Shown: positions 1-63,189 of the stretch, in pieces | How the letters are laid out: each line of letters begins with the position of its first letter | How positions within the stretch are numbered: the first letter of the stretch is position 1 | Program-made: the position numbers and the translations under genes | Source of the DNA: Nitrosospira sp. | GTDB taxonomy: Bacteria > Pseudomonadota > Gammaproteobacteria > Burkholderiales > Nitrosomonadaceae | DNA: 64,000 nucleotides | Direction of reading: 5' to 3' | NCBI GenBank assembly: GCA_013821425.1 | Contig: JACDGV010000008.1 | Span: 1-64,000, forward strand | The notes under the pieces: model-generated | What the model was told of the DNA's origin: nothing | Seen by the model: the letters and a program-made list of their open reading frames with translations, nothing else | The model's database searches: none

Positions 1-151
1 CAAAGGTCCGCTGATACCAGATCCAGAATATCGCTACCAGCAGCATGGTGATCAGACCAAATTTGTACCACCTGGAGTCGTACCACAGCGACATGTCGTA
101 GTCGCGACCTCCCGACTTCGCCTGGCTAGGAGTTTCTAGTGTAGTTGCCAT
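1..151 (-). CDS. amoC: Ammonia monooxygenase subunit C, N-terminal part (runs off window)
   Basis: Only the first 50 codons are present; the gene continues past the left edge. AmoC is an integral membrane subunit of ammonia monooxygenase, which oxidizes ammonia to hydroxylamine. The visible protein starts [10 protein letters not shown], then has [16 protein letters not shown] and the start of a membrane helix ending in IWYQRTF, the recognisable AmoC N-terminus of ammonia oxidizers. The ATG at 151 is preceded by a strong AGGAGGT ribosome binding site. Leftward transcription is the usual first-gene position for an amoCAB operon, but a lone amoC copy cannot be excluded because the downstream genes lie outside the window. 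Confidence 0.95.
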
Positions 152-8321: not shown

Positions 8322-9902
8322 ATGGCAGCAGTAGATCACGACATCGCACACGCGCACGACGATCATCACCCCACGGGCCTGATGCGTTGGATAGGCGCCA
8401 CCAACCACAAAGATATCGGTACGATGTATCTGTGGTTCAGTTTCATCATGTTCCTGACAGGGGGCGTGATGGCCCTGACTATCCGGGCCGAACTGTTTCA
8501 GCCGGGCATACAGATCGTCAACCCGGAGTTATTCAACCAGTTGACCACCATGCATGGCCTCGTGATGGTGTTCGGGGCCATCATGCCGGCCTTCGTGGGT
8601 TTTGCCAACTGGCAGATACCGATGATGATCGGTGCCCCTGACATGGCATTTGCGCGGATGAACAACTGGAGCTTCTGGCTCTTGGTGCCGGCGGCCCTGC
8701 TGTTGATAAGCTCGTTCTTCGTGCCGGGTGGCGCGCCTGCGGGCGGCTGGACAATTTACCCGCCATTGTCCGTCCAGATGGGGATGGGGATGGATATGGC
8801 CATCTTTGCTCTTCATATTATGGGTGCGGCATCCATCATGGGGTCGATCAACATCATCACCACGGTTCTTAATATGCGCGCGCCGGGCATGACGCTGATG
8901 AAGATGCCGCTATTCGTTTGGACCTGGCTGATCACTGCCTACCTGCTGGTGCTGGCAATGCCGGTGCTGGCGGGAGCGATTACCATGCTGCTGACAGACC
9001 GCAACTTCGGTACCAATTTCTTCAACGCGGCAGGCGGTGGCGATCCCGTGATGTTCCAGCACATTTTCTGGTTCTTCGGGCACCCGGAAGTCTACATCAT
9101 GATTCTGCCGGCATTTGGCATCGTCTCGGAGATCATCCCGACCTTCGCGCGCAAACCGCTGTTCGGCTACTCGTCGATGGTTTACGCCACTGCTTCCATC
9201 GCCATTCTCTCCTGCATCGTCTGGGCGCATCACATGTTTACCGCAGGTATGCCGGCGGCCGGCCAGCTGTTCTTCATGTATGCCACCATGCTGATCGCGG
9301 TGCCGACTGGAGTGAAGGTGTTTAACTGGACTGCCACGATGTGGCGCGGTTCAATGACCTTTGAGACCCCCATGCTGTTTGCCATCGGCTTCATTTTCCT
9401 GTTTACCATCGGCGGCTTCAGTGGTGTTATTTGTGCCATCGTTCCGATAGACATACAGGTGCAGGATACCTATTATGTGATTGCACACTTCCATTACGTG
9501 CTGGTATCAGGCGCATTGTTTGCTCTGTTTGGCGGCACCTACTACTGGTTGCCGAAATGGACGGGGCATATGTACGATGAAACGCTGGGCAAGTGGCATT
9601 TCTGGCTATCAATGTTCTTCTTCAACCTCGCCTTCTTCGTGCAGCACTTCCTGGGGCTGGCGGGTATGCCGCGGCGCGTTCCCGACTACGCGCTGCAGTT
9701 TGCGGACTTCAATATGATTTCCAGCATAGGGGCGTTTGGTTTTGGCTTAACGCAACTGTTGTTCCTCTATGTAGTGCTGAAGTGCATCCGCGGTGGTGAA
9801 AAAGCACCTGCCAGCCCGTGGGAGGGTGCGAAGACGCTGGAATGGACCTTGCCATCTCCAGCGCCATACCACAGCTTTGAAACGCCCCCGGTCGTGAAGT
9901 AG
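8322..9902 (+). CDS. ctaD: Cytochrome c oxidase subunit I (aa3-type, A1 family)
   Basis: Catalytic subunit with heme a and the heme a3-CuB centre, reducing O2 and pumping protons. The 526 aa include twelve predicted membrane helices. Ligand segments are clear: [11 protein letters not shown] (heme a His), GHPEVYI (CuB His with the cross-linking Tyr and the A1-type Glu), WAHHMFTAG (CuB His pair), and AHFHYVL (heme His pair). The ATG at 8322 is preceded by AAGGAGA. It lies between coxB and a tiny assembly gene. Confidence 0.97.
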
Positions 9903-9916
9903 GAACGGTGACTGAT

Positions 9917-10021
9917 ATGAAGAATGATGCAGAAAGAAGGCGCGGCGCAATCAAAACAGCGCTCTTTCTGCTCGCATTCGTAGTGGGGATTTATCTTATG
10001 GTAATCATAACCTGGTCATGA
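9917..10021 (+). CDS. Small cytochrome oxidase assembly protein (34 aa)
   Basis: A very short gene between ctaD and ctaG. It encodes 34 aa: a charged start (MKNDAERRRGAIKTA) and one membrane helix (LFLLAFVVGIYLMVIITW). Its TGA overlaps the ATG of ctaG as ATGA at 10018-10021, a sign of translational coupling. Betaproteobacterial oxidase clusters commonly have such a ~35-40 aa single-helix protein at exactly this place, annotated as a small assembly protein. Its biochemical role is not known to me. Confidence 0.75.
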   Translation: MKNDAERRRGAIKTALFLLAFVVGIYLMVIITWS

Positions 10022-10575
10022 ACGTAGTCAACGCCAACTCGGTAGTAATGAAGAAACTGCTGGTTTTTACAGTGGTCATGTTTGTCTTCGGCTTCGCTTT
10101 GGTGCCCTTTTATGAAAAGATCTGCGAAGTGACAGGCCTGAATAACCTGTTGCAAGCGGATACGTTGGTGGAGAATCCGCAGGTCGATACGGCGCGCTGG
10201 GTAACGATAGAGCTGGATGCAAATGTACGCGGCCTGCCTTGGCAGTTTAAACCCCTCCAGCGCAGTGTCAGTGTTCATCCCGGAGAGATGGTGCAGGTAA
10301 TGTACGAAATCAGTAATAACTCCAACCGGGAGATTAACGGGCAGGCAATACCCAGCTATAGTCCCCAGTTGCTCGCGAAACATCTGAAGAAACTCGAGTG
10401 TTTTTGTTTCAGCAAACAGGTGTTGAAGCCAAACGAGGTGCGGCAGATGCCGGTTCAATTCATGATTGAATCAAATCTGCCAGCCGATATTAATACCGTT
10501 ACTATTTCCTACACATTTTTTGAGCTTGGCACCAACAACGCGGCAGCGATGCGCGATAGCGGGAATCGCAGTTGA
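10018..10575 (+). CDS. ctaG: Cytochrome c oxidase assembly protein CtaG (Cox11)
   Basis: Cox11-family copper chaperone that inserts CuB into subunit I. It has 185 aa, one N-terminal membrane helix (LLVFTVVMFVFGFALVPFY) with the conserved LVPFYEKICEVTGLN start of the periplasmic domain, and the copper-binding ECFCFSKQ motif followed by the typical FMIESNLPADINTVTISYTFF end. It overlaps both neighbours: ATGA with the upstream small protein and 4 bases with the DUF2970 gene. Confidence 0.95.
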   Translation: MNVVNANSVVMKKLLVFTVVMFVFGFALVPFYEKICEVTGLNNLLQADTLVENPQVDTARWVTIELDANVRGLPWQFKPLQRSVSVHPGEMVQVMYEISNNSNREINGQAIPSYSPQLLAKHLKKLECFCFSKQVLKPNEVRQMPVQFMIESNLPADINTVTISYTFFELGTNNAAAMRDSGNRS

Positions 10576-55623: not shown

Positions 55624-56748
55624 CTAGTGATCCATGGCCGGAGCTGAATCCGGGTTGGGTTTCTTGAGCTGCTCCATGAGATCGTTGTCCCATTCGCCCT
55701 CGACGTTCATGTGTGCAGCCGCGCCCAGCAATACCGCCTCGATCAGGTTATGGCTGAGGTAGACGTATAAGCCGGGCTGCTTGAACTCGTACAAGGCCGC
55801 TACCGCTGCGCCACCGGGAACAAACCAGGTTTCCTGGTTGGTGATCGGAGTATCGGCAAAGGAGCCGCCCTGCCACACCAGGTCGCCATGGCCGCCGATC
55901 AGGTGAGGACGTGAATCGCGATTGGCCTGGGAATGGATGAACAGCACCTTCTCGCCCACGTTGGCCTTGAGTGCGTTATCCCCGGTCAGGGCACCTGCTG
56001 CGCCATTGAAGACGACATGGGTCGGGACAAGCCCCTTGGACAGTTCGAGCATCTCATGCATGCCTTCGGCAGGCGAACCATAGGTCTTGTACTTGCCATC
56101 CTTATCCTTGGGGATATAGTAATCCTGCTCGCCGATGTAGTAGGCGCGGTCATAGGTTATGGACTTGCCCTTGGCATCCTTCAGGCCGTCGCGCGGCAAT
56201 ACCATGATGGCGCCGTTCATGCCGGACAAGACGTGAAACGGAATCATGGTGCCCCCAGGGGCGCAGTGATAGACAAATACCCCAGGCTTGGTGGCCTTCC
56301 AGCGCACCACCACATCTTCGCCAGGGGCAACCAGGGTCAAGCCGGCAGAGCCCAGTTGGCCGGTGGCGGCGTGGAAGTCAACATTGTGCGACATGGAGCT
56401 TTCCTTCGGGTTGACCAGTGTCAGCTCGACATAGTCATCCTGATGCACGACGATCAGCGGCCCGGGAACCGTGCCGTTGAAAGTCAGGGCCCATACCTTT
56501 GTCCCGTCAGGGGCAATGTCCACTAGCTTCTCTATCGTTTCCATGCGGATCTTCACTACCTTCGGACCACCCTTGGCCACCTGGTCGTGCTTCGGCACGA
56601 AAGGCGGAGCCACCAGCTCCTGGGTCACCACCGGTAATTTGGAAATGTCTTTTGACGTCAACTTGTCTAAAATACCCGCGCTGGCCATCGGGACAGCGCT
56701 CATGCACAGCACTCCCAGTCCGACGACCCCTTGAACAACTTTGTTCAT
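55624..56748 (-). CDS. nirK: Copper-containing nitrite reductase
   Basis: Periplasmic enzyme reducing nitrite to NO. 374 aa: signal peptide ([24 protein letters not shown]) and two cupredoxin domains. Type 1 and type 2 copper ligands are visible: [12 protein letters not shown] (His, catalytic Asp, His), [18 protein letters not shown] (His-Cys, His, Met), and YLSHNLIEA (His); the catalytic His is in [13 protein letters not shown]. The C-terminus ends in a Pro/Ala tail. GGGAGGG precedes the ATG. Single-gene unit with its own terminator; a MITE-like element lies 93-304 bases upstream of its start. Confidence 0.97.
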
Positions 56749-57052: not shown

Positions 57053-57332
57053 AAAGAGCGAAGGCCCGGCAACTATACAGCTTTACAATTTGTGTGTCCA
57101 TGCAGTCCTCATCAAGAAATGGGGTGTGCTGGACACAAACGGAAAAGATATTCGAAACCTCATCATTGGTTTTCGTTTAAGGCGTGCTTTCAAGCTGTTG
57201 TAGACTCTTTGGGTAGTTCGCGTGTCAAGGGTGGACTGAAGAACTCTGTTTTTATTCTCGACTGGTTTGTTATACAATCCGCGATTGTTCAAGCCAAAGT
57301 TGAGCGTAAGATTAATAGAAACCGGAGATATC

Positions 57333-57929
57333 ATGAATAGAATTGTCGAGCGGGTTGTAAGATTGGCAGGGGCAATGTTGCTGGCAACGGCGGCTCTACC
57401 CGTCCATGCGCAACTGATGCTCGCTCATGAAGGTCATCATTCGGGAGACTGCGCCATAAAAACGGGAGCGTTTCCTGTGGCCTTCAGCGCTTACGAAAAA
57501 CCCAAGGGTCAGCTTCCGCCGACTCATGCATATTGCGATCATGTTCCAAATACGGGCGAGTTGATTATCACGGTTGATTTGACGGATCCGAAGTCTCGCG
57601 AGATCCCTATAGCGGCGCGTTTGGTGATGGAGGGGCATGGAGAAGGCGGGCACGAGATTTTGTCTTTGCCACCAAAGGAATACCCCTCGGGCAGTATTAC
57701 AATTGCTGCGAATCTCGATGATCTGGGTCAGTATGTTTTGCTATTGGAAACCGAGAAGGCTGGCAAAATGACCACAGCCGTGCGTATTCCGATACGTGTA
57801 GGGGGCGGCGGAGGTCATGGTGGGCATGGTTCCGGATTAGGTGTCGCGGAGATCGCCTTATTGGTGGGTGCTGCCGGTATCGGGGCTTTCTTCTGGTTAC
57901 GCCGCCGTCCGACCGTAAAGGCATCCTGA
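57333..57929 (+). CDS. Secreted His/Gly-rich protein with C-terminal membrane anchor
   Basis: 198 aa from the ATG at 57333 (AACCGGAGATATC before it gives a GGAGA site). Signal peptide ends around LPVHAQ; the mature part has HEGHHSGDCAIK, a second Cys in AYCDH, and domain strands (NTGELIITVDLTDPKSREIPIAARL). A His/Gly linker (GGGGGHGGHGSG) leads to one membrane helix and a basic end. No family recognised. His content and position beside nirK suggest metal contact, but this is a guess. Confidence 0.7.
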   Translation: MNRIVERVVRLAGAMLLATAALPVHAQLMLAHEGHHSGDCAIKTGAFPVAFSAYEKPKGQLPPTHAYCDHVPNTGELIITVDLTDPKSREIPIAARLVMEGHGEGGHEILSLPPKEYPSGSITIAANLDDLGQYVLLLETEKAGKMTTAVRIPIRVGGGGGHGGHGSGLGVAEIALLVGAAGIGAFFWLRRRPTVKAS

Positions 57930-58327: not shown

Positions 58328-59515
58328 TTATTGGAATAAAGTTTTACGCAACGCGCCAAATGCTTCGCCGACGTAAGCCATTTGTTCAACGCTATGGGCC
58401 GCGCTGACACTGCAACGTACCAGCGACTTCCCTTCAGGAGCCGCTGGCGGTAATATCAAATTCACGTAGATACCTTTTTCAAGCAGACCTTTCCAGAGCG
58501 CAAGTGCTTGTTGAGGCGTATCAAGTATGGCGGCGATAATAGGGCTGGGCTCCGGGCCCAGTTGATAGCCGAGTTCCTGGAGCCGCGAATAGAGTTGTCG
58601 GGCATTCTCCCATAGTTGCCGCCTCAATTCCGTACCATCGCGCAATAATTTGAGTGCTGCCCGCGTTGATGCAATGGTAGCGGGGGTCGGCGACGCCGTG
58701 AATATATACGGCCGGCTGACGAACCTTAATTGGTCAAGTTGCGCGTGATTGCTTACGCAAAAGCCTCCGATACTGCCGAGACTTTTGCTGAAAGTGCCGG
58801 TGATAAAATCAATTTGGCCAACTAGTCCTTTTTCTTCGACCAGCCCCTGACCTGTCTTGCCTAGTACGCCAAGTGAATGTGCCTCATCCAGAAGGAGTGT
58901 GCTGTCGTAGGCATTTTTTATTTTTACAATCTCCGCCAGTGGTGCCCGGTCGCCCAGCATGCTGTAGATGCCCTCGACAATGATCAGCGTAGAGCGCGAT
59001 CGATCACCCAAGCGGTGAAGGCGCTTCTCCAGGTCTGAAATGTCATTGTGGCGAAACCGGATGATTTCGGCGCCACTCAAACGGCACCCGTCGTAGATAC
59101 TTGCATGAGAGTCGCCATCAATAACGATGACATCGCCGACCCCTGCCAAGCCCGAAATCGTGGCTAGATTGGCCTGATAACCTGTCGTAAAGACGATGCA
59201 GGATTGGCTGTGGTAAAACTCGGCGAATTCGCGTTCAAGGGCACGGTGACCGATATAGCTGCCGTTTGCCATGCGAGACCCGGTAGTACCCGTGCCCTCG
59301 CTATCGATCGCGTTATGTGCTGCTTTCAGACATTCCGGCGCAAAGGTAAGTCCCAGGTAATTGTTGGTACCCAGGAATAATATGCGGCGCCCATCGATTT
59401 TCGCCTCCGTGGAAGAATAAATTTCTTCTATCGGGGTACCAAAAACTTCGATACCTGCGGGCAATAGGGCTTTTCGTGCCGCAGCTACAGCATCAAGTTT
59501 ATCCAGCAAACGCAT
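58328..59515 (-). CDS. spt: Serine palmitoyltransferase (alpha-oxoamine synthase)
   Basis: PLP enzyme joining serine with a fatty acyl thioester to make the long-chain base. 395 aa. Marks: NNYLGLTFAPECLKAA, GTGTTGSRMANGSYIGH, DGDSHASIYDGCRLSGAEI, LLLDEAHSLGVLGKTGQG, and the PLP lysine in TGTFSKSLGSIGG, then RPYIFTASPTPA. The sequence follows Caulobacter Spt closely, and differs from BioF/KBL. Its ATG overlaps the acyl-carrier stop by one base (TAATG). Last gene of the minus-strand sphingolipid operon. Confidence 0.88.
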   Translation of the reverse strand: MRLLDKLDAVAAARKALLPAGIEVFGTPIEEIYSSTEAKIDGRRILFLGTNNYLGLTFAPECLKAAHNAIDSEGTGTTGSRMANGSYIGHRALEREFAEFYHSQSCIVFTTGYQANLATISGLAGVGDVIVIDGDSHASIYDGCRLSGAEIIRFRHNDISDLEKRLHRLGDRSRSTLIIVEGIYSMLGDRAPLAEIVKIKNAYDSTLLLDEAHSLGVLGKTGQGLVEEKGLVGQIDFITGTFSKSLGSIGGFCVSNHAQLDQLRFVSRPYIFTASPTPATIASTRAALKLLRDGTELRRQLWENARQLYSRLQELGYQLGPEPSPIIAAILDTPQQALALWKGLLEKGIYVNLILPPAAPEGKSLVRCSVSAAHSVEQMAYVGEAFGALRKTLFQ

Positions 59516-59784
59516 TACTTGGGGGATTTTATCTGGTGAATCAAATTTGCAAGCTCATGAACAGTCTGAACGTCTGCAAGAGCGTTAAGTGGAACAGAAA
59601 TGTCAAACTCATCCTCCAGTTCCATTATGAGGTTTAATAACTTGACGGAGTCGATGGCAAGCTGGTTAATAAGGTCTGTTTGGGGCGTAATTTCCACATC
59701 GGGGTCGCAAAATTTTCTGAGATGCATGCAAAGTGCGTGCAGGATGTCGTTGTAATCGCTCGCCATGGCTGACTCTGAAATCAT
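59515..59784 (-). CDS. acpR: Acyl carrier protein for sphingolipid synthesis
   Basis: 89 aa from ATG 59784, or 83 from ATG 59766 (MASDYNDIL). The phosphopantetheine serine is in LAIDSVKLLNLIMELED, with Val after Ser instead of the usual Leu. It would carry the acyl chain handed to serine palmitoyltransferase, as AcpR does in Caulobacter. It begins 11 bases after the SDR gene and overlaps spt by one base. Confidence 0.8.
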   Translation of the reverse strand: MISESAMASDYNDILHALCMHLRKFCDPDVEITPQTDLINQLAIDSVKLLNLIMELEDEFDISVPLNALADVQTVHELANLIHQIKSPK

Positions 59785-59794
59785 TAAACCGGAA

Positions 59795-60709
59795 TTATAT
59801 CGCTTGGGGTAAGGCTTCACGCAACCGGATACGAGGTTGCCAATCCGGAAGCGCCTTGGTTAGGGGAATGATGTCGCATACCCAGTCCGGATGTTGCAGT
59901 TCCCGGACTTTGCCTGGAGTGAGCATCGGCGCGTATCGTAGCACGCGGGCCGCCCATAAATTAACAGTTGCAACCAGCGAAACGACGGGTGCAGGCAGAA
60001 AGATGCAGCGAACCGGGCGCTGCCAGACATCTTGGGCGATCGCTGCGACGGATTTGCTGTCATAACCTCCAGGCATTCCGTCATCAAGCTCATAGGTGCC
60101 AAGCACGGGAACCTTGGTGGAAAGCCAGCACATCACAGCAGCTACCAAATCACTCACGTGCAATAAACCAAAGCGCATCGCGGGTTTTCCCACCATTGGC
60201 AATACACCGCGCCGGGTCGCTCTAAAGAGCGGGCTCATTTCCTTATCTCCCGGACCATATACGGCAGTCGGGCGGAAAATCGCGCACGGCATCAAATTCG
60301 AGTAGTCACTCAGCAACTGCTCAGCCATGCGTTTGCTCGTTGCATACCAGGAAAGCTCCGGCTTTCTGGCGGCTAAGGAAGATATAAGGAGAAAGCGGGG
60401 CGGGACGGCTTGCTGAGCCAAAACACGCAAAAGATTGCCGGTACCTTGAACGTTGGTATGAACGAAGTCCTCAAGAGAACTTCCCCGGACCTGGCCAGCA
60501 CAATGCACAACAGCAATAACATCTTTGACGAGGCTCCGCAATGCATCGAAATTATCCAAATCACCTTCGATCCATTGCGTGAATTCATCATCTGCCCGCC
60601 GGCGCCTAGTCAAGGCCCTGACCTTCCATCCTTCCCTGATCAGGGCCTGTAAAAGCGCATGACCAATAAAGCCGGTGGCACCGGTCACTGCCACCAAGGA
60701 CTGTGGCAT
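59795..60709 (-). CDS. cerR: NAD-dependent epimerase-like ceramide reductase
   Basis: 304 aa extended short-chain dehydrogenase. NAD motif TGATGFIG near the N-terminus, VVHCAGQVRG, catalytic YATSK at about residue 124, and RPTAVYGPGDKEM. In Caulobacter the neighbouring NAD-dependent epimerase of the spt cluster (CerR) reduces the 3-keto group of the ceramide precursor; the same position here supports that role. Begins six bases after the acyl-ACP synthetase stop. Confidence 0.78.
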   Translation of the reverse strand: MPQSLVAVTGATGFIGHALLQALIREGWKVRALTRRRRADDEFTQWIEGDLDNFDALRSLVKDVIAVVHCAGQVRGSSLEDFVHTNVQGTGNLLRVLAQQAVPPRFLLISSLAARKPELSWYATSKRMAEQLLSDYSNLMPCAIFRPTAVYGPGDKEMSPLFRATRRGVLPMVGKPAMRFGLLHVSDLVAAVMCWLSTKVPVLGTYELDDGMPGGYDSKSVAAIAQDVWQRPVRCIFLPAPVVSLVATVNLWAARVLRYAPMLTPGKVRELQHPDWVCDIIPLTKALPDWQPRIRLREALPQAI

Positions 60710-60715
60710 CTCTGG

Positions 60716-62575
60716 CTATTTGTCCCCGGATTCGGCTGATAGCGGGTCTGTCAGATTTGTTCGCTGCATGAAACCTTGACGTGCCGCGAAACGCGAAAGC
60801 TTGCCGGACGAGGTCCGGGGTAAAGTATGCGGGGGCACCAGTTCAACCAGACAATTAACCCCGAATGCCATATACACGAGTCGTTGCAACCGGCTGGTAA
60901 GAGATTGCCGGTCTGTTATTGATGTTAACCGGCACTCAATGACCAGAACAATCGTTGTGGCGTCATTAGCGTCGGTTATTCCAAAGGCGGAAACTTCCCG
61001 GGTTCTCACCTCTGGTTGCTGTTCGGCAAGTTCCTCTATATCCTGAGCGCGGATATTACGCCCATTTACGATAATAACATCTGTGCGGCGGCCGGAAACA
61101 TAGAGGTTACCTTCAAAAACGAAACCCAGATCACCAGTGTCGAGCCAATTTCCGGGTTGTAACGTCTTCTGGGTATCCTCCGGATTATTGAAGTAGCCGG
61201 TCATGATGCTGCTGCCTCGCACCAGTACACTGCCTACTCTCAGGTCCGGCAGTTCCAGACCGCTGTCATCAACCACTTTAACCGTATGCCCCGGCAGTGG
61301 ACGGCCACAATTTACAAATTCGCTATACTTCCTGCCTTCTGCTTGTAACCGGATCGCCATCTTCCTGTCCACCAGGGTTCCCGCATCAACGCGCAGACTC
61401 TGAAAGCCTTGGCCTACCTGAGAAAAAGTTACAGCAAGCGTTGATTCGGCCAACCCATAGCAAGGGAGAAAGGCGCTCGCATTAAATCCCGCAGGCCCAA
61501 ATTTTTCGGCAAAATTTCTCAACGTATCTGGCCGGATCATCTCCGCCCCGACTCCTGCCGCGCGCCAACTGCTAAGGTCAAGGTCTTCCAGGTCCGAATC
61601 ACGAACCCGCAGGGTACAAAGTTTGAGTCCGAATGGTTGGCTAAACGCAACAGTGGCACGATTTCGGGCAATCAAACGCAGCCATTGCAGGGGTCTGATG
61701 GCAAAATCACGGGTAGCCAGATAGTCAACGGAGACTTGTGCCACCATTGGTGCCATCACCATGCCGACCAATCCCATATCGTGATAAAACGGAAGCCAGG
61801 ACGCACACCGATCACTAGGATTTATTTCCAGCCCATGCCGGACAATTCCCTGGAGATTACTCATTAGCGCGCGTTCGGTTATGATCACGCCACGCGGAGT
61901 ACGAGTGCTACCCGACGTGAATTGCAGGTAGGCGATTTCGTCAGGATGATTTGATGGCAGAGCGACGTCCGCAAGAGAGCGATCTCCAAGCTGCTCCGGC
62001 GTGCCGACCCAGCGTAATTTCCTCGATCCCTCGGCAGCTTCTCGCAGAAAGCCAACATAATCCAAGTTAGCTACGGCAGCGCTTGCCTGGCCAGCTTCGA
62101 GCATCCCGCGAAGCTGTTGAACGTATACGGCGTGACTTCCCAGATTCACTGGCACAGGCATCGCATAAGGAATCAAACCTGCATAACGGCATGCAAAAAA
62201 CAATTCCACAAACTCCGGAGTCGTGTCGGCAATGATAGCGACGCGATCACCGCGGACCAACCCAAGACCCGCGAGGCGTTGTGCCGAAATGCACGCGTTT
62301 TGCCTTAGCGCCTGATAAGAAAGGACCGAACGCAGATTGCCTCTTGCATCGTAAAAATTATACCCTGCGGTTCCTGACGCCGCATATTCCAGCGCAGCGG
62401 TCAAGGTTTCGAAGTCGGCCAATCTTTGGGCCTGAGTGTTATACGTAGGTGTCGGGGTTATTGTTGTGGCCGATTCGCTCGATAGCCGGCCATCAAACGC
62501 TTGCGTCAGCGGGGCGTTCAACTTCGCTACTGTTAAACTCAAAGTTTTCCCCTCCGAATTAATGGAACTAGTCAT
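60716..62575 (-). CDS. aasR: Fatty acyl-AMP ligase / acyl-ACP synthetase
   Basis: 619 aa from the ATG at 62575; an in-frame start at 62608 exists. ANL-superfamily motifs: LQFTSGSTRTPRGV (P-loop, one Arg instead of Gly/Lys-rich), LPFYHDMGLVG, CYGLAESTLAV, WLDTGDLGFV, GRRTDVIIVNGRNI and a final RTSSGKLSR lysine. The length and YHDMGL motif are those of fatty acyl-AMP ligases. It would activate a fatty acid and load it onto the acyl carrier protein of this operon (AasR in Caulobacter). First gene of the four-gene run. Confidence 0.85.
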   Translation of the reverse strand: MTSSINSEGKTLSLTVAKLNAPLTQAFDGRLSSESATTITPTPTYNTQAQRLADFETLTAALEYAASGTAGYNFYDARGNLRSVLSYQALRQNACISAQRLAGLGLVRGDRVAIIADTTPEFVELFFACRYAGLIPYAMPVPVNLGSHAVYVQQLRGMLEAGQASAAVANLDYVGFLREAAEGSRKLRWVGTPEQLGDRSLADVALPSNHPDEIAYLQFTSGSTRTPRGVIITERALMSNLQGIVRHGLEINPSDRCASWLPFYHDMGLVGMVMAPMVAQVSVDYLATRDFAIRPLQWLRLIARNRATVAFSQPFGLKLCTLRVRDSDLEDLDLSSWRAAGVGAEMIRPDTLRNFAEKFGPAGFNASAFLPCYGLAESTLAVTFSQVGQGFQSLRVDAGTLVDRKMAIRLQAEGRKYSEFVNCGRPLPGHTVKVVDDSGLELPDLRVGSVLVRGSSIMTGYFNNPEDTQKTLQPGNWLDTGDLGFVFEGNLYVSGRRTDVIIVNGRNIRAQDIEELAEQQPEVRTREVSAFGITDANDATTIVLVIECRLTSITDRQSLTSRLQRLVYMAFGVNCLVELVPPHTLPRTSSGKLSRFAARQGFMQRTNLTDPLSAESGDK

Positions 62576-63189
62576 CTTTTTATAATGTAAAGAATTTCGG
62601 TCGGACACACATCAAACCTCTGGTTGCAATATCTCTCGCCGCGAGCCTACAACTATCACCAATTCGATATGCTGCAAACGCAATCTCGTGACATATATAT
62701 ATTTCCCAAGTCACGGCATATAGCTACGTTTCAAACGAAAAAAATGACGTTCGGATAAATCGTGGGTCTTGCCTGAGGGTTGCAGGAACGAAGGCTCCAT
62801 TCTGTACGAGTTATCAGCCAAGATAAAGAGATTTTGGAGAATGCAAGGGAAATGTGTGGTATTTTTGCAACAGTTGATTTGAGGTATCGCGCACCCCGAA
62901 AATGGTTGGTGGCGCAAGGTAAAAAGGTGGCTGGCTATCAGTCGCCGACTCCCCTGGCCTTCTCTGGCCCGGTCGCGTTTTAGTTTTGGACGGCAGGCGG
63001 ATTACGATGCGATGTTCAGGGCTTCCTTAGAGAAATTCCGTATGTATGAGTGCATGGAGGCGCGTCGGTGCAAGGCGACAAGGCGTACGATAGATCGCGG
63101 TCAGGGGCTTTTACAATGCGAAGCTGCAATTTCAATACGATAAGCCCTGTTCTCTTCCCTCGCGCCGCCCCCCGGCCATCGGGAGGTCC
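62576..63189. other. Intergenic region upstream of the sphingolipid operon
   Basis: About 600 bases. It includes a short dispersed-repeat arm remnant, TTCAGGGCTTCC at 63015-63026 followed by TTAG. The operon promoter should be close to 62600 but I do not see a clear one. A 67-aa plus-strand frame here was not accepted. Confidence 0.4.

Follow-up and report, generated by a model that had tools for sequence, protein, structure and literature searches.

A 64,000-nucleotide stretch of Nitrosospira sp. DNA (the window: positions 1 to 64,000, forward strand, of contig JACDGV010000008.1, assembly GCA_013821425.1) carries four minus-strand open reading frames, in transcription order aasR, cerR, acpR and spt, at positions 58328-62608 (62575 with the ATG start of aasR). 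This operon is very probably the first half of a split Caulobacter-type pathway for dihydroceramide and phosphosphingolipids. Judged by sequence similarity, all five dihydroceramide genes, aasR, cerR, acpR, spt and cerS, are present in one genome. An earlier note on this DNA had equated the four packed genes with the Caulobacter set spt-acpR-cerR-aasR and read them as a route to sphingoid bases or ceramides. Indeed, the gene order and enzyme types are the same and the profile scores agree, and the reading gains support from an Spt that stands apart from BioF-type proteins and from an apparent orthologue of the ceramide synthase (CerS) in the same genome. The gene set as such is already known; what is added here is its extent across the family Nitrosomonadaceae, its possible origin, and a split in its head-group genes.

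The operon and the genes that would complete the pathway

The first gene of the operon, aasR (60716-62575, minus strand, with an alternative GTG start at 62608), encodes a predicted acyl-AcpR synthetase of the fatty acyl-AMP ligase type, which scores 862.7 bits against a cut-off of 600 with the NCBIfam model PRK09192, matches AMP-binding in Pfam (E 6e-56), and shares 45% identity with the E. coli homologue near spt. The second, cerR (59795-60709, minus strand, 304 aa), encodes an extended short-chain dehydrogenase/reductase (SDR), predicted to be a 3-oxo-sphinganine or oxo-ceramide reductase (Epimerase in Pfam, E 1.1e-28; 46% identity with the E. coli homologue), and the GATGFIG and YATSK stretches of its translation are what we take to be the SDR motifs. 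The product of acpR (59515-59784, minus strand) is a predicted dedicated acyl carrier protein (PP-binding in Pfam, E 2.9e-11; 47% identity over 57 residues with the E. coli homologue), with presumably the attachment serine in the DS of LAIDSVKLL; the ATG at 59784 is its likelier start and a GTG at 59820 the alternative. The last gene, spt (58328-59515, minus strand, 395 aa), encodes the predicted serine palmitoyltransferase (SPT). On Pfam and NCBIfam scores the four predicted proteins are identified well above chance, and the acpR and cerR proteins are below the cut-off of every NCBIfam model listed for them.

The gap between aasR and cerR is 6 bases, and acpR and spt overlap by 1 base, which the start codon of spt shares with the stop codon of acpR. 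The spacing of cerR and acpR depends on the start chosen (10 bases with the ATG, an overlap with the GTG). The operon has a GC content of 52.6%, against 54.0% for the window. A promoter scan gave 1 site against a shuffled mean of 4.1 and a terminator scan gave 8 against a mean of 5.6 (sd 2.8), both at background level.

The ceramide synthase was said in the earlier note to lie outside the window, with a genome search as the way to find it, and this proved correct to the extent that a protein search can tell. With E. coli YghO as query, from a locus in which yghO adjoins aasR-cerR-acpR-spt, that search gave a single match in the genome, on contig C7 (139161-140276, 49% identity, E 9.1e-124). 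Because no Pfam or NCBIfam model matches YghO, CerS was out of reach of a family search and came to light in the protein search. A PF13480 search of the genome returned five GNAT-type matches (the three best on C24, one on C1 and one on C35). The three on C24 were rejected as CerS for their deacetylase-, glycosyltransferase-, NUDIX- or NAD-synthase-like neighbours (read from translations), and the one on C1 was likewise ruled out by its neighbouring genes.

On C7, cerS stands in a one-strand cassette (L075) with a MobA-like NTP transferase, two LptF_LptG permeases, a DAGK_cat kinase and a weakly Tam41-like gene. The kinase (L075:6791-7804, DAGK_cat E 1.6e-16, GGDG motif visible in the translation) lies beside cerS and is, by its domain and its linkage to ceramide genes, a CpgB-like putative ceramide kinase. 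A CDP-alcohol phosphotransferase (CDP-OH_P_transf, cpgA-like) was located at C34:20323-21534, and a CpgD-like nucleotidyltransferase about 4 kb from it at C34:15682-16380, the latter with a query judged to be CpgD by its looks (the L126 syntenic-cluster protein of another genome, not Caulobacter CpgD). CpgD belongs to the COG1213 cytidylyltransferases. We also observed an HTH_21-domain fragment near the phosphotransferase (L232 7365-7961, on C34 of the same genome), which we take to be of transposase type and which may be a clue to the separation of the phosphotransferase gene from the C7 cassette.

In the pathway that these genes would form, AasR would activate a free fatty acid and load it onto AcpR, Spt would join acyl-AcpR and L-serine to 3-oxo-sphinganine, and CerS from C7 would N-acylate and CerR reduce (the order is still debated) to give dihydroceramide. 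The CpgB-like kinase would then yield ceramide-1-phosphate, the remaining C7 and C34 genes would build the phosphoglycerate head group of ceramide phosphoglycerate (CPG and CPG2), and the LptF/LptG-type pair adjoining cerS would carry the lipid to the outer membrane. Given the presence of CerS, the C7 cassette and the C34 genes, the predicted product is ceramide phosphoglycerate, as in Caulobacter; from these likenesses we infer the enzyme activities, the lipid product, its transport and its physiological role. The Caulobacter and E. coli homologues have published biochemistry, which we count as support (PMC9386255, PMC10331486, PMC12275187; statements from the literature here and below rest on the available parts of the papers cited).

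Identity of Spt and alternative readings

Spt scores 592.9 bits against the cut-off of 500 of NF047599, the NCBIfam serine palmitoyltransferase model, and its best sequence match in PDB is the serine palmitoyltransferase 2x8u (E 2.8e-125), the best-matching solved structures being serine palmitoyltransferases. The idea that it is instead a BioF- or KBL-type enzyme that works in some unrelated acyl-ACP pathway and was wrongly called Spt is largely refuted and now has almost no probability. The fold family is the same and the BioF model does give 333 bits, but this is below its cut-off of 426, KBL reaches 320.6 of 460, the remaining oxoamine models listed fall short likewise, and the window genome carries its own separate BioF (L002). 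Moreover, in a careful Spt tree of 61 rows (25 of the 86 rows of a first tree were removed, including four end branches flagged as long), six BioF-type outgroup rows (four above the BioF cut-off, two with BioF as their best model but below its cut-off) are divided from every Spt by a 97/97 branch, and 100% of 200 bootstrap trees separate these six from the 12 Nitrosomonadaceae rows. Of the phylogeny against BioF, KBL and CqsA that the earlier note had proposed, the part on BioF-type proteins is thus borne out, as Spt does not cluster with them; for KBL and CqsA, as for ALAS, the exclusion is by model scores, the outgroup of the tree being of BioF type only.

Several observations weigh against assigning the operon to a ceramide phosphoglycerate pathway. 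The Tam41_Mmp37 match is weak in the window genome (E 0.063), and the Tam41-like protein of a related locus, L168, reaches E 4e-5 but lies slightly below the gathering score, leaving this assignment weak. The kinase was found at E 1e-40 in 121/125 family genomes, and in 24 of the 121 the match reads through one stop codon, as 6 of the 105 phosphotransferase matches do through one or two; such copies may be broken, or merely aligned beyond their end. Orthology to the Caulobacter CC_ genes was drawn via synteny and published domain descriptions and is hence indirect. In Spt itself, the position of Arg378 (S. paucimobilis numbering) is occupied by leucine, and E. coli SPT and 32/32 family proteins have the same residue there as the window protein. 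Arg378 contacts the carboxylate of serine in S. paucimobilis SPT (PMC3794620, PMC6148460), and Sphingobacterium multivorum SPT accepts alanine and glycine, at far lower efficiency (PMC10196870), so that the operon could make another alpha-oxoamine lipid, from a different amino acid (alanine or glycine, giving 1-deoxy bases), or a signalling ketone. We consider this unlikely. E. coli SPT, with the same leucine, incorporates labelled serine with acyl-AcpR (PMC9386255), and the leucine therefore does not refute Spt function. The equivalents of Lys265 (the pyridoxal phosphate lysine), His159 (stacking), Asp231, His234 and Arg390 are all retained, in the window Spt as well as in 32/32 family proteins and 31/31 other proteobacterial SPTs compared, and CerS, the kinase and CPG-type genes co-occur with it. 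Arginine stands at the 378 position in 14 of those 31; by this comparison Arg378 is not defining for the whole SPT group, and leucine is a group variant rather than a loss of function. That the genes were inherited yet are silent or non-functional in the window organism is less probable still: the genome is a draft, but the frames are open, the catalytic residues are retained, and Spt is above cut-off in 119/125 Nitrosomonadaceae genomes.

Distribution and possible origin in the Nitrosomonadaceae

To judge from profile matches, the Spt trait is near-universal in the Nitrosomonadaceae and rare elsewhere in the order. Six family genomes had no Spt over the cut-off (G006, G017, G028, G039, G056 and G119), only G056 of these being at least 90% complete, and G017 holds an Spt fragment truncated at a contig edge; the YghO search found CerS in 120/125. 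In a sample of the order Spt passed in 11/300 genomes, nine from the family and 2/291 others (a figure that assumes that unlisted misses belong to other families), and in a phylum-wide sample it passed in 36/398, including one further order member, G754. Genome G056 (91% complete, amoA present) is without Spt and CerS but has kept the phosphotransferase and, with one stop read through, the kinase; a loss of ceramide synthesis and missing contigs are both possible.

The CDP-alcohol phosphotransferase was present in 105/125 family genomes and was not found in 6/23 genomes of the window's genus, 9/9 of genus g4, and 5 others among the 125. Of 19 genomes of the window's genus in which both genes were sought, the 16 with the phosphotransferase are exactly those where the CpgD-like gene was found, and the 3 without it yielded none, a co-occurrence expected once in 969 under random placing, phylogeny ignored. 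From this pattern we infer two lipid types in the family, CPG and CPG2. CPG formation in Caulobacter requires the kinase CC_1160 and CC_1161, and that of CPG2 requires CC_1159, CC_1158, CC_1153 and CC_1152 (PMC11324152, PMC10331486, PMC12275187).

Gene order was compared across named loci, the best 80 of at least 587 from one contig scan, of which 25 were counted as Nitrosomonadaceae (two titled only Betaproteobacteria or Burkholderiales) and 55 as others, some of them short contigs. The four genes have the same order and strand in 25/25 family and 36/55 other loci, all four being present in 40/55 of the latter. The cerS gene lies inside the fetched flanks in 37/55 non-family loci (short contigs included) versus 0/25 family loci. 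Eight of the 55 (L168, L172, L173, L196, L198, L201, L221 and L222) hold the four genes, cerS, the kinase and a Tam41-like gene in one stretch; in the closest three, L168, L172 and L173, the genes for the Tam41-like protein, kinase, LptG, LptF and CerS stand divergent beside aasR-cerR-acpR-spt, with an NTP transferase in the L173 cluster that was not found in L168 or L172. In Nitrosomonas sp. Nm51 (L167), cpgA-like phosphotransferase, kinase and Tam41-like genes lie immediately upstream of aasR, and in 9/15 loci of the phylum sample Tam41-like and kinase genes are near spt on the opposite strand. On such linkage, the ceramide-synthesis half and the head-group half belong together. The record of L168 is titled Klebsiella pneumoniae, probably wrongly, and its Spt is 69% identical to the nitrifier protein; among the matches listed, the most similar named Spt are those of Nitrosovibrio and Nitrosospira (85%).

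The first Spt tree drew its rows from 54/80 named loci (26 dropped as near-copies, as short contigs or in group thinning), 15/31 phylum and 3/32 family proteins. In the careful tree, 12/12 Nitrosomonadaceae group together (100/99), with L168 and L172 as the sister branch (100/98) and L170 and L190 as the next (98/93); the other betaproteobacterial SPTs (Sulfuritalea, Methylotenera and Burkholderiales metagenome-assembled genomes, MAGs) form a distant clade and those of Nitrospirota another. The CerS tree, a quick one of 57 rows with support from the Shimodaira-Hasegawa-like approximate likelihood-ratio test (SH-aLRT) only and with L212 excluded (<330 aa), likewise holds nine family CerS together (97), joined by L168, L172 and L170 (99), with the other betaproteobacteria and Nitrospirota apart. 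In both trees the neighbours of the family are MAGs titled as gammaproteobacteria, and of these L168 and L172 have the two halves joined in one divergent cluster; the trees thus agree with a single gain of the cassette, which would have taken place in the ancestor of the Nitrosomonadaceae. Two family genomes have an additional, divergent CerS-like protein of about 37% identity (L136, about 9242-10360, in G042; L137, about 1055-2191, in G009); both copies lie far off in the CerS tree, and no further cassette gene was found around them in the stretches fetched.

We also considered a common nitrifier origin of the Spt of Nitrosomonadaceae and Nitrospirota and found no support for it, the Nitrospirota being a clade of their own and far off in both the Spt and the CerS trees. 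The genes aasR-cerR-acpR-spt occur in eight loci whose titles read Nitrospirota, Nitrospirae, Nitrospirales or Nitrospira (L176, L180, L181, L183, L191, L192, L194 and L195), with cerS nearby in 7/8. Ammonia monooxygenase (AMO) gave no match in 13/13 genomes behind L168, L170-L174, L176, L180, L181, L183 and L190-L192, a weak negative: the model matched only in the family search, which misses many drafts.

The membranes of nitrifiers are mostly discussed via phospholipids and intracytoplasmic membranes. We give about even chances to a broader proposal, by which anionic phosphosphingolipids would have belonged to the outer membrane of the Nitrosomonadaceae from the founding of the family and would be one of its core traits. 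On this view a single gain, from a relative of certain gammaproteobacterial MAGs and independent of other betaproteobacteria, would have brought the entire cassette for ceramide synthesis, head group and dedicated Lpt-type export, which would have split later; cpgA and cpgD would have been lost as a unit in a sister genus and in part of the species of the window's own genus, leaving CPG-only and CPG2 types. Should ceramide phosphoglycerate be made by almost all ammonia-oxidizing betaproteobacteria, it could alter outer-membrane charge and the way cells respond to detergent and polymyxin, as the lipid does in Caulobacter (PMC11324152), and it could act as an environmental lipid marker. In cultured strains of Nitrosomonas and Nitrosospira we would expect sphingoid bases, with CPG2 confined to those that have the cpgA/cpgD pair.

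As to the host and the surroundings of the operon, the window, and with it the contig, begins inside amoC (2-151, minus strand, with its start codon at 151 and the rest lost at the contig edge; match positions 2-118, E 5.3e-8). The amoA gene (PF02461) was not found in the 99.86%-complete assembly of the window genome and was found in only 67/125 family genomes; an amoC cut short where the contig stops points to a loss of repeated amo operons from draft assemblies, which may explain these gaps. A copper nitrite reductase is encoded at 55624-56748 of the window (TIGR02376), and near this nirK an open reading frame at 57267-57929 (plus strand, 220 aa) has a hydrophobic C-terminal stretch and no Pfam or NCBIfam match at E 0.001.

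Comparison with known systems

The earlier note had presented the trait as one not usually attached to nitrifiers, which overstated its novelty, because the same gene set was reported in 2022 for the ammonia oxidizer Nitrosomonas eutropha, where Neut_0458-0461 are named aasR, epi, acpR and spt and Neut_1100 is an N-acyltransferase (Padilla-Gomez 2022, PMC9386255). In 2024, at least 13 of the 17 cluster genes were described as having good orthologues in this species, in three regions, with CPG and CPG2 predicted, and orthologues of CC_1166-1168 and CC_1158 were reported lacking (PMC11324152). At the level of titles and abstracts we found no measured sphingolipid of a nitrifier, in a literature search with poor coverage of subscription journals that is no proof of absence. 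For the family-wide core distribution, the origin shared with intact clusters of gammaproteobacterial MAGs and the cpgA/cpgD split, no printed statement was found in a likewise incomplete literature, supplements excluded.

The window genome resembles N. eutropha C91, as described in those sources, in having aasR-cerR(epi)-acpR-spt (with consecutive locus tags in C91), cerS elsewhere, head-group genes in further regions, and predicted CPG/CPG2. It differs in belonging to the Nitrosospira/Nitrosovibrio lineage and in carrying cpgA- and cpgD-like genes on the separate contig C34. With E. coli DS26-1 (L044; yghO-aasR-cerR-acpR-spt-lptG-lptF) it shares the leucine for Arg378 and all five ceramide genes, whose proteins are 45-54% identical; unlike the window genome, E. 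coli has all five genes in one stretch, and no DAGK or Tam41-like homologue was found in that stretch of 12 kb. No Caulobacter title was among the best 80 loci of the at least 587 scanned. With Caulobacter crescentus (CC_1165-CC_1162 and CC_1154, in the region CC_1168-CC_1152), the window genome has in common aasR-cerR-acpR-spt, CerS, the putative ceramide kinase, the CDP-alcohol phosphotransferase, the nucleotidyltransferase and the LptF/LptG-type pair, which lie in one region in Caulobacter and on three contigs in the window genome.

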